From a virus, in the IMG/VR virus record IMGVR_UViG_3300032287_000350, positions 1-27,717 of that record: DNA of 27,717 nucleotides, one strand, 5' to 3'. Position 1 is the first letter of the stretch. Each line of letters starts with the position of its first letter. Positions 8,743 to 12,725 of this stretch are shown here, in pieces. Position numbers and translations under genes: made by a program. The notes beneath the pieces are model-generated. The model was given only the letters and a program-made list of their open reading frames with translations, was not told where the DNA came from and did not search any database.

Positions 8743-9015
8743 ATGATTGTATTAAACATTTGCAAAGAGGAAATCAACTGGAAAGAAGCTAAGAACGGCA
8801 AAAGTTACGCAAACGTAGCTACCGACTTTCTTAAACAACCAGATGACAAAGGAAACACTCACACAGTATGGAACAACCAAAGTCCAGAAGAAAGAGCCGA
8901 AAAAGCAAAGAAAAACTATTGTGGTAGAGGTAAACAAGTTTCTTATAACGCACCAGCTGCTAAGAAGGAATTTGCCGTAAACCAACAGGAATCAGAAGAT
9001 GATTTACCATTCTAA
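8743..9015 (+). CDS. Small protein with an SSB-type acidic C-terminal tip (90 aa)
   Basis: 90 residues ending ESEDDLPF, very close to the DDDIPF tip with which bacterial SSB recruits replication and repair partners. The N-terminal part (MIVLNICKEEINWKEAKNGK, then SYANVATDF) reads like an oligonucleotide-binding strand pair: W-x-x-x-x-x-G-K-x-Y resembles the L45-type turn of some phage ssDNA-binding proteins. It is shorter than a typical SSB OB-fold (about 110 residues). A linker rich in Lys/Asn/Gln joins the two. Location after bet supports a role at single-stranded DNA. It may be a reduced SSB or a decoy for SSB-partner proteins. Confidence 0.65.
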   Translation: MIVLNICKEEINWKEAKNGKSYANVATDFLKQPDDKGNTHTVWNNQSPEERAEKAKKNYCGRGKQVSYNAPAAKKEFAVNQQESEDDLPF

Positions 9016-9067: not shown

Positions 9068-9262
9068 ATGAGCCAAACAACACAAATCGCAAACTACCTA
9101 AATAAAGGTAGAAAATTAACCCCTATTGATGCTTTAAACAAGTTCGGATGCTTTAGATTAGCAGCACGAATTGCAGACCTTAGAAATGATGGAATGAACA
9201 TTAAAACTACCATTATTAAGCTAAAAAATAAGAAGCAAGTCGCACAATATTCGATAAATTAG
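9068..9262 (+). CDS. Helix-turn-helix protein (HTH_39-like, 64 aa)
   Basis: 64 residues covering almost exactly one winged-helix-like domain: TTQIANYLNKGRKLTPIDAL (4-23), then FGCFRLAARIADLRNDGMNI and a C-terminal wing KKQVAQYSI. The L-T-P-x-x-A-L-x-x-F-G-x-x-R-L-A-A-R-I-x-D-L-R pattern is that of the small phage HTH_39 family. It may regulate the downstream block, whose presumed promoter and structured leader begin three bases after its stop. No dimerisation extension is visible. Confidence 0.8.
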   Translation: MSQTTQIANYLNKGRKLTPIDALNKFGCFRLAARIADLRNDGMNIKTTIIKLKNKKQVAQYSIN

Positions 9263-9264
9263 GT

Positions 9265-9272
9265 TATCTTCG
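9265..9272 (+). promoter_or_regulatory. Possible -7 box (TATCTTCG) for a structured leader or small RNA
   Basis: TATCTTCG differs by one base from TAnnTTTG. Transcription starting 5-7 nt downstream would begin at the first hairpin of the RNA candidate at 9278. No clear TTG element lies upstream. Confidence 0.35.
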
Positions 9273-9277
9273 TACAA

Positions 9278-9361
9278 AGGATGTAGGATATCCTAACTCA
9301 AACTTATTGGCTCAAAGCTGAAACCCTAATCCTACTGGGGTGGATGCCGAGAGCCTTTTTT
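9278..9361 (+). ncRNA. Candidate structured RNA/leader with complementary hairpin loops and a 3' T-run
   Basis: This fills the 104-nt gap between the HTH gene and the replication gene. Hairpin 1: AGGAT (9278-9282) with ATCCT (9290-9294), loop GTAGGAT (9283-9289). Hairpin 2: GGCTC (9309-9313) with GAGCC (9351-9355), inner GC/GC (9317-9318, 9346-9347) and ACCC (9323-9326) with GGGT (9338-9341), apical loop TAATCCTACTG. The loop bases ATCCTAC (9329-9335) are a perfect 7-nt complement of loop 1, so the loops could kiss. GAGCC is followed by six T (9356-9361), six bases before the ATG at 9367. TAGGATATCCTA (9284-9295) is also a perfect palindrome, giving an alternative fold. This could be an attenuator, a ligand-sensing leader or a short RNA. 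I do not recognise a known class; it does not match fluoride, preQ1, SAM or hammerhead consensus features. Confidence 0.4.
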
Positions 9362-9366
9362 ATTTT

Positions 9367-10017
9367 ATGGCTAAAGACCCAGCAGTATTATTTTATACAA
9401 GCGATTTTCTTAGTGGCACTTTTACAATGGATAATGAACAAGTCGGTAAATATATTCGACTTTTGTGCTTACAACATCAAAAAGGCAAATTAAGTGAAAA
9501 GGATATGCTAAGCATATGTAAAGCATATGACAACGAGATTTGGGATAAATTTAAAATTGAAGATGGTTTATACTACAATGAAAGAATGTTTAATGAAACC
9601 ATTAGAAGGCAAAAATTTAGTGAAAGTAGGCGAAATAACGCTAAATCACCTAAAAAAGAAAGCACAAGCAAAGCATATGCTGAGCATATAGAAACTGAAA
9701 CTGAAAATAGAACTATAACTATAAATGAAAATATAAATATAGATTTTGAATGGTTTTGGAATGAATATGATAAAAAGATAGGAGATAAGCAAAAGTTAAA
9801 AAAGAAGTGGAATAAATTAACAGATGAAGAAAGGCAAAATGCAATGAATTATATTGAACTTTACAAACAATCAGTACCAGACAAGCAATTCCGTAAAAAC
9901 CCAGAAACCTTTTTAAACAACAAATCTTGGAACGATGAAATCATTAACAGAAATAATACCCCAATCCATAAACTCTCTTACTCCGAGCGAGAGGCTAATG
10001 CACTTAGAAATTTATAA
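9367..10017 (+). CDS. Replication protein, DUF1376-like (replisome organiser type)
   Basis: The ATG at 9367 begins MAKDPAVLFYTSDFLSGTFT, the usual opening of this family. An in-frame GTG at 9340 lies inside the RNA hairpin and is rejected. 216 residues. The N-terminal ~75 residues form a winged-helix-like domain (EQVGKYIRLLCLQHQKGKLS, then KFKIEDGLYYNERM). A low-complexity linker follows (SESRRNNAKSPKKESTSKAY, Thr/Glu/Asn repeats). The C-terminal helical domain FEWFWNEYDKKIGDKQK...KNPETFLNNKSW resembles the tail of phage replication initiators. Such proteins are thought to bind origin DNA and recruit host helicase. The 3' end overlaps the next gene by 83 bases. Confidence 0.75.
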   Translation: MAKDPAVLFYTSDFLSGTFTMDNEQVGKYIRLLCLQHQKGKLSEKDMLSICKAYDNEIWDKFKIEDGLYYNERMFNETIRRQKFSESRRNNAKSPKKESTSKAYAEHIETETENRTITINENINIDFEWFWNEYDKKIGDKQKLKKKWNKLTDEERQNAMNYIELYKQSVPDKQFRKNPETFLNNKSWNDEIINRNNTPIHKLSYSEREANALRNL

Positions 10018-11570: not shown

Positions 11571-11676
11571 TAACGGGAACAAAGTAACATTTGGTAAAAG
11601 AAAGACAGGAAAGTACAAAAAGACATCTGGTCCTAAAGATAAACCAGTTAAACCTTATAATCAACAAGGCAGATAA
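11557..11676 (+). CDS. Very basic small protein (39 aa)
   Basis: The 39-residue frame starts MAKVSNGNKVTFGKRKTGKY and has roughly one Lys or Arg in three to four residues; the C-terminal half is KTSGPKDKPVKPYNQQGR. I recall similar short lysine-rich proteins with an N-terminal M-A-K-V-S-N-G motif from Bacteroidota phages. Probably disordered and nucleic-acid-binding. It overlaps the preceding frame by 14 bases. Confidence 0.6.
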   Translation: MAKVSNGNKVTFGKRKTGKYKKTSGPKDKPVKPYNQQGR

Positions 11677-12377: not shown

Positions 12378-12725
12378 ATGGCAAATGAGCATAATTTAAT
12401 ACCAGCACAAAAAGGAGAGGTGAGAAACCCAAAAGGCAGAGGGAAAGGTGTGCAAAATAGTAAAACTCGTTTACTTAGATTACTTGAATTAGTACAAAAG
12501 AAACGCAACCCAATTACAGGAGAAGAAGAAGATTTTACTGTGCTTGAATTGATGGATATGCAAATGATATCAAAGGCATTAAGAGGAGATCAAAGAGCCT
12601 ATGAGGCAGTAGTCGATAGATTAGAAGGTAAGCCTAAACAAACAACCGACATCACCGCCGACATTAAGGGGAATGTGCAAATCACAATAGAACCAGATGC
12701 AGATTGTCAACCAATTAAAGATTAA
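12378..12725 (+). CDS. terS: Terminase small subunit
   Basis: 115 residues. The N-terminal GEVRNPKGRGKG (14-25) is the K-G-x-x-x-N-P-x-G-R-x-K-G motif of DUF5681-type small terminases. A helical centre follows (TRLLRLLELVQKKRNP), then VLELMDMQMISKALRGDQRA and KPKQTTDITADIKGNVQITI, the usual ending of such proteins. TerS recognises the packaging site and stimulates the large subunit. It overlaps the large-subunit gene by 29 bases in another frame, the classical arrangement. Confidence 0.85.
   Translation: MANEHNLIPAQKGEVRNPKGRGKGVQNSKTRLLRLLELVQKKRNPITGEEEDFTVLELMDMQMISKALRGDQRAYEAVVDRLEGKPKQTTDITADIKGNVQITIEPDADCQPIKD

Follow-up and report, generated by a model that had tools for sequence, protein, structure and literature searches.

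Comparative analysis shows that an RNA of the transcription strand keeps, by compensatory change, two hairpins whose loops pair with each other in an intramolecular kissing helix of 7 bp. The window, which is the whole stretch of DNA analysed, is a single virus record of 27.7 kb. As judged from the sequences of its relatives, the RNA is more than a chance fold, the comparative evidence being decisive, and well over a hundred related viruses carry this kissing-hairpin leader, upstream of replication and DNA-cutting genes that are not related to one another. The leader is probably an on/off switch for the genes downstream of it.

All parts of the element lie on the + strand of the window. The Bacteroidota sigma-A -7 box TATCTTCG (consensus TAnnTTTG) occupies 9265-9272. 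The published position of this box is -12 to -5 (PMC9723704, PMC6847099), which places the predicted transcription start (+1) at about 9277, at the foot of hairpin 1. Hairpin 1 (9279-9293) is formed by GGAT at 9279-9282 and ATCC at 9290-9293, and its 7-nt loop GTAGGAT (9283-9289) is the first kissing strand. A single-stranded linker follows (9294-9308), with the conserved AACTTATT at its 3' end (9301-9308). Hairpin 2 (9309-9355) consists of a base stem (GGCTC 9309-9313 with GAGCC 9351-9355), a 3x3 internal loop above it (AAA/CGA), a middle stem of 2 bp (GC 9317-9318 with GC 9346-9347), a 4x4 internal loop (TGAA 9319-9322 with GGAT 9342-9345) and an apical stem (ACCC(T) 9323-9327 with (G)GGGT 9337-9341). 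The apical loop contains the second kissing strand, ATCCTAC (9329-9335), which is complementary to GTAGGAT. Directly 3' of hairpin 2 lies the terminator-like U-rich tract TTTTTTATTTT (9356-9366), with six T at 9356-9361, and then a gene for a replication initiation/primosomal-type protein of 216 aa, as assigned by PHROGs (9367-10017). On the 5' side, an HTH_39 gene (9068-9262) lies between the leader and an SSB-like gene (8743-9015), which is two genes 5' of the leader. The 90-aa product of the latter has a DDLPF end resembling the acidic tail of single-strand DNA-binding proteins; it gave a weak PHROG match of unknown function and no match in a Pfam search.

The two hairpins, their loop complementarity, the six T, the -7 box and a 12-bp palindrome had been pointed out in a preliminary description of the window, and all of them were found in place. 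When the single sequence was folded, the energy was weak (z -1.65, with 11 of 200 shuffles equally good), and the MFE fold gave another hairpin 1, built on the palindrome TAGGATATCCTA (9284-9295). The palindrome is absent from AGGTGTCGGATACCT-type members. Neither it nor the MFE hairpin 1 is conserved in relatives, and the competing fold that had been proposed from the palindrome was therefore rejected. A simple terminator scan missed the element because of the internal loops of hairpin 2, and a simple sigma-70 scan is uninformative for this phylum.

Relatives were collected by searching viral contigs with a 22-nt pattern from hairpin 2, which gave 36 stretches. About 85 nt are nearly invariant in all 36, the upstream genes are of several kinds, and the downstream gene varies. 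Looser patterns yielded 37 distinct RNAs from 75 loci, and then more divergent members. The kissing loops vary as pairs, including GTAGGAT/ATCCTAC, GTCGGAT/ATCCGAC, GTCAGAT/ATCTGAC, GTGAGAT/ATCTCAC, GTACCAT/ATGGTAC and others. A descriptor of two hairpins, complementary 7-nt loops and a T run matched 120 times in the fetched sequence (2.19 Mb) and 3 times after shuffling; this count is a check of specificity and gives no occurrence rate, because the fetched loci are enriched by construction. The leader was present in 43 of the 45 whole contigs searched, mostly in one copy, and in four contigs (L038, L150, L152 and L232) an HNH endonuclease is preceded by a second copy, whose kissing sequence differs. 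A scan of sequenced host-species contigs with one pattern returned only two chance-looking matches (L144 and L145), and blastn against phage and plasmid records returned nothing meaningful. Weak model matches at L247:4222 and L248:4749 were rejected as coding sequence without kissing loops. The contig IMGVR_UViG_3300042471_000049 carries two slightly different leader copies near its opposite ends (L012 at the start, L033 at the end), and a near-identical element of about 85 nt may break or join metagenome assemblies.

The pairing was then followed through alignments of increasing depth. No member of a set of 24 close relatives breaks any of the 23 pairs (16 nested and 7 kissing), and 5 of the pairs are changed on both sides. 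With 32 members, 98.6% of the cells are paired, 17 pairs are double-changed, and the kissing helix is paired at 100%. With 68 distinct homologous RNAs (alignment A7), 97.9% of the 1,531 cells over the 23 pairs are standard pairs, and 21 of the 23 pairs are changed on both sides. These include all 12 pairs of hairpin 2 and all 4 of hairpin 1, in which 99.6% of the cells are paired. The double-changed cells in A7 number 437, compared with 121 +- 11 in shuffles, and slid structures paired at most 49%. Two kissing positions have 4 unpaired cells each, which result from a gap inside the loop of an L264-like subgroup; the ungapped loops are perfectly complementary. Genes kept behind pairings lost without compensation, named in the preliminary description as the outcome that would speak against the structure, were looked for, and the opposite was found.

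Alignments made by model search lean to the nested structure, but none of the models used included the kissing helix. APC-corrected mutual information was calculated over all column pairs with no structural input. At an effective sequence number of only about 13, the top two pairs are kissing pairs and 16 of the top 17 fall in the structure, the seventeenth lengthening hairpin 1 by one pair. G-U combinations occupy 56 cells and A-C combinations 1 cell, which indicates that RNA of the + strand is under selection. All-pairs covariation and a scan for alternative helices found no conserved alternative (antiterminator) helix, only weak purine/U-tract pairing.

A second sample was gathered independently of the RNA, from loci encoding proteins that resemble DUF4373-type (Lin1244_N) replication proteins (n=80, including a few contigs already met, e.g. 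L241, L253, L279 and L298). A significant match was obtained at 66 of the 80 loci, and 65 of the matches lie directly before the protein gene. The other one (L286) lies before the neighbouring upstream gene, which by eye resembles the L104 methyltransferase. All 45 distinct significant RNAs have perfect 7-nt loop-loop complementarity, with ten loop sequences among them, and when loops were swapped between RNAs none of 1,900 combinations fit. The comparative tests support the kissing loop proposed from the window. Fourteen loci gave no model match. Two of these (L255 and L320) are cut at the contig end, four (L305, L316, L318 and L319) carry a more diverged kissing-hairpin leader, which in L305 is not immediately upstream of the query gene, and the remaining 8 have no kissing leader. 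Five loci without a kissing leader (L304, L306, L308, L311 and L312) have another hairpin (e.g. GCACGAGGCACCTA...TAGGTGCTTTCGTG) just 5' of the DUF4373-type gene.

The family is organised, 5' to 3', as TAnnTT[TC]G, about 4-20 nt, hairpin 1 with its 7-nt loop, a linker of about 15 nt, hairpin 2, a U-rich tract and ATG. The box TAnnTT[TC]G precedes every distinct RNA checked, in agreement with the near-consensus -7 box first noticed in the window. The linker end AACTTATT is invariant in the closer member sets; in distant members it reads AACTYATT, or AACAATATT in one branch. The idea that AACTTATT is an antisense -7 box was set aside because, in an alignment read by eye, it fails in distant members. 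Hairpin 2 has a base of 4-5 bp and an apical stem; between them, a purine-rich 3x3 loop and then another internal loop, typically UGAA/GGAU, flank a 2-bp stem. Family-wide its apical loop holds the 7-nt kissing partner. The symmetric UGAA/GGAU loop, with its tandem G-A (9319-9322 / 9342-9345 in the window), is seen again in very distant members (GAUGAA / GGAUUC) and may represent a recognisable motif of RNA structure or a site for binding.

The 3' end of the leader is equally regular. The U-rich tract directly follows the G+C-rich base of hairpin 2, 5' of the start codon, in all members. It is imperfect in some (TATTTTATTT), and in distant members hairpin 2 resembles an ordinary terminator (L319, AAAGGGTG...CACCCTTTTTTT). 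The ATG is 9-12 nt after the hairpin 2 stem in 71 of 71 aligned members; the frame varies and the genes are unrelated. A GTG at 9340, considered as a conserved small-ORF start, was rejected because its frame to the gene shifts with the 9-12 nt spacing. Leader genes have a U-rich start context, in which the stem lies at about -11 to -14. The other genes of the window are A-rich at the start (A at -11 in 23/29 and at -3 in 17/29), and adenines at such positions favour initiation in F. johnsoniae (PMC6847099). A U-rich start context where A is favoured suggests that the U run is kept for a role other than ribosome binding, most simply termination.

The genes behind the leader belong to several unrelated families. 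The window protein matched the replication initiation/primosomal families phrog_270 (2.6e-11) and phrog_9327 (3.6e-10) of PHROGs. It does not reach Pfam DUF1376, the family named in the preliminary description, and a relative reaches it weakly, below the cut-off. Other leaders precede Lin1244_N/DUF4373 initiators (phrog_2562), a DnaA-like replisome organizer/DnaD-like loader (phrog_6251, phrog_1701), a phrog_428-like initiator (L207), DNA methyltransferases (phrog_757; PF01555), NUMOD4-HNH homing endonucleases (PF07463, PF13392) and an unassigned family, MAKRFTDTEKW. The leader subtype with loops GTGAGAT/ATCTCAC (AGGCTTGA...TGATAGCC; L038:7439-7529, L150:6265-6355, L152:3933-4023, L158:8530-8620, L167:3696-3786 and L227:178-268) occurs only before NUMOD4/HNH-type endonuclease genes with differing insertion points, as if it travelled with the homing endonuclease.

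Leaders of this kind were also located in cultured Flavobacterium phages. A broad model gave a weak match (E 0.013) in Flavobacterium phage hattifnatt9-1, where the loops kiss over 8 nt (GCTTCGAC/GTCGAAGC) and a helicase gene follows. A strict descriptor, which required a promoter, kissing hairpins, a base stem adjoining the U tract, and an ATG that opens an ORF of 50 codons or more, matched 5 times in 12 cultured phages (487 kb in total) and once in ten shuffled copies. In the F. columnare phage FCL-2, TATATTTG at about 37475-37482 is followed by the kissing pair CATCCAC/GTGGATG and an ATG at 37596, and the gene behind it, gp54, is a replication initiation protein (phrog_428, 4.7e-32). The other leaders have their promoters at 9358 and 13299 in hattifnatt9-1, at 11640 in mymlan6-1 and at 12545 in stinky9-1. 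The second copy in hattifnatt9-1 and the copy in mymlan6-1 each precede a gene annotated as a NUMOD4 (PF07463) endonuclease, and stinky9-1 has an identical leader and the same gene start as these copies. The annotated start of the gp034 helicase of hattifnatt9-1 (MN812207), at 9441, falls inside the 3' strand of hairpin 2, and the gene more likely starts at 9477, where an in-frame ATG lies 3' of the U tract. No leader was found in Cellulophaga phi18:1 and phi10:1 or in Flavobacterium 11b. The recurrence of replication-initiator and endonuclease genes behind matches made by structure only strongly supports the family; these leaders, matched by structure and not by sequence, may be distant relatives or convergent. 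The cultured carriers FCL-2, hattifnatt9-1, mymlan6-1 and stinky9-1 make the leader directly testable.

The fixed spacing from stem to ATG, the non-homologous genes and the varying frame argue for a cis-acting leader and not a free small RNA. Of the functions first suggested for the element (a switch, an attenuator or an independent small RNA of about 85 nt), the attenuator or leader is favoured by the 9-12 nt spacing before unrelated genes, and the independent small RNA is disfavoured. We lean, with slightly better than even confidence, towards a cis-acting 5' leader that is likely a transcription attenuator, with a terminator hairpin held by the kissing contact and a default state of off. 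Transcription would start at hairpin 1, and hairpin 2 with the U tract would act as an intrinsic terminator that stops most transcription just 5' of the start codon. Hairpin 2 may also cover the ribosome site, which would leave the gene off in the default state. How well the base of hairpin 2 closes as the polymerase reaches the U tract would depend on the kissing contact with the 5' hairpin. A signal would then change read-through, and with it when, or how much of, the replication protein and endonuclease are made; candidates are an RNA-binding protein of phage or host, a ligand occupying the conserved purine-rich internal loops, and polymerase speed. Three findings stand against the attenuator: no classical two-state switch is visible, there being no conserved alternative helix, the two internal loops in hairpin 2 are unusual for a terminator, and the U tract is imperfect in some members. 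Since no competing helix is conserved, switching, if it occurs at all, probably involves the tertiary contact or a bound factor, and not two mutually exclusive secondary structures. It is possible, though we think it improbable, that the leader is a new phage riboswitch-like device, in which the kissing complex senses a ligand or a replication- or host-state factor in the purine-rich loops and gates transcription of initiators and homing endonucleases across Bacteroidota phages.

A translational leader without termination, acting as a stable 5' cap against decay and/or controlling ribosome access, with the U tract as ribosome landing site, is unlikely but deserves serious weight. The T4 gene 32 leader pseudoknot is a parallel, and an SSB-like gene lies two genes upstream (8743-9015). 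The stem base, at a constant 9-12 nt from the ATG, is within the ribosome footprint, and a fully satisfied fold with no alternative helix is compatible with such a leader. However, a GC-rich base stem followed immediately by a U run is the signature of a terminator, and U at -3 and -6 is poor for the A-favouring Flavobacterium ribosomes (PMC6847099). A trans-acting small RNA of about 80-85 nt is less probable still. It would account for the promoter box, the terminator-like end and the near-invariant sequence of close relatives, but distant members diverge freely in sequence and keep the pairing alone, the kissing loops are consumed inside the molecule, and a start codon always stands 9-12 nt further on, before unrelated genes that include homing endonucleases elsewhere in the same genomes. 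There is little to recommend a polymerase-binding antiterminator like HK022 put, through which the nascent leader would make the polymerase ignore downstream terminators: two hairpins of about 70-85 nt just after a phage promoter recall putL (PMC9378689), but put has neither a kissing loop nor a U tract after its second hairpin, and it acts on distant terminators, by way of the zinc-binding domain of polymerase beta', whereas the leader abuts one gene. Control by antisense RNA as in plasmid pT181, where a terminator-like hairpin also immediately precedes the rep start (PMC8383071), is very improbable: that scheme does not need an intramolecular kissing partner, and inspection of the alignment by eye showed no conserved reverse TAnnTTTG, AACTTATT being similar to a leftward -7 box in the window and not in distant members. 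Single-stranded DNA hairpins of a replication origin or recombination site would suit the position beside replication genes and are hardly credible in view of the 56 G-U cells against 1 A-C cell, the promoter, the start-codon spacing and the copies before endonuclease genes.

No Rfam 15 covariance model matched at the gathering threshold, in the window or in ten sources with divergent members, and matches at E<=10 were chance matches only; the initial impression that no known riboswitch or ribozyme class fits is borne out. No earlier description was found in the literature, within a limited coverage of subscription papers and supplements. Structured phage leaders, attenuators and kissing-loop RNAs are known as kinds, and the present architecture and family appear new. 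Rfam has no entry for this structured-RNA family, in which covariation is unusually clean and extends to a tertiary (kissing) helix. The family is widespread among phages of a phylum in which little is known of phage gene regulation. On a replication-start gene the leader may set the commitment point of infection, and the same leader on homing endonucleases suggests shared control.

Several known systems resemble the leader in part. In the ColE1 RNA I / RNA II complex, which controls replication and is bound by Rom/Rop, seven-nt loops are fully paired between two molecules; loop pairing of the same length and a link to replication are shared, whereas the contact in the leader is intramolecular. 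The Guanidine-II (mini-ykkC) riboswitch, which binds guanidinium and has short conserved ACGR loops, is also a 5' leader with two hairpins whose loops are thought to kiss. Its ACGR tetraloops have no match here, where the loops are 7 nt, vary freely over at least 10 sequences and gave no hit in the Rfam search. The T4 gene 32 leader pseudoknot, through which gp32 autoregulates translation, is likewise a tertiary RNA structure before the start codon of a phage replication gene, but it has no terminator and a different fold. HK022 putL forms two hairpins soon after a phage promoter (PMC9378689), and two hairpins near the predicted start of a phage transcript are present in our members. The put RNA, of about 70 nt, is cis-acting as is the leader, and differs from it in having no kissing loop, no terminal terminator, no link to a start codon and no sequence relation that could be found. 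The pT181-type rep mRNA attenuator needs an antisense RNA and mutually exclusive folds (PMC8383071), whereas the leader has its loop partner in the same molecule and no conserved alternative fold; the two share a terminator-like hairpin immediately before a replication-initiator gene and, as proposed for the leader, RNA-based control of the initiator dose.
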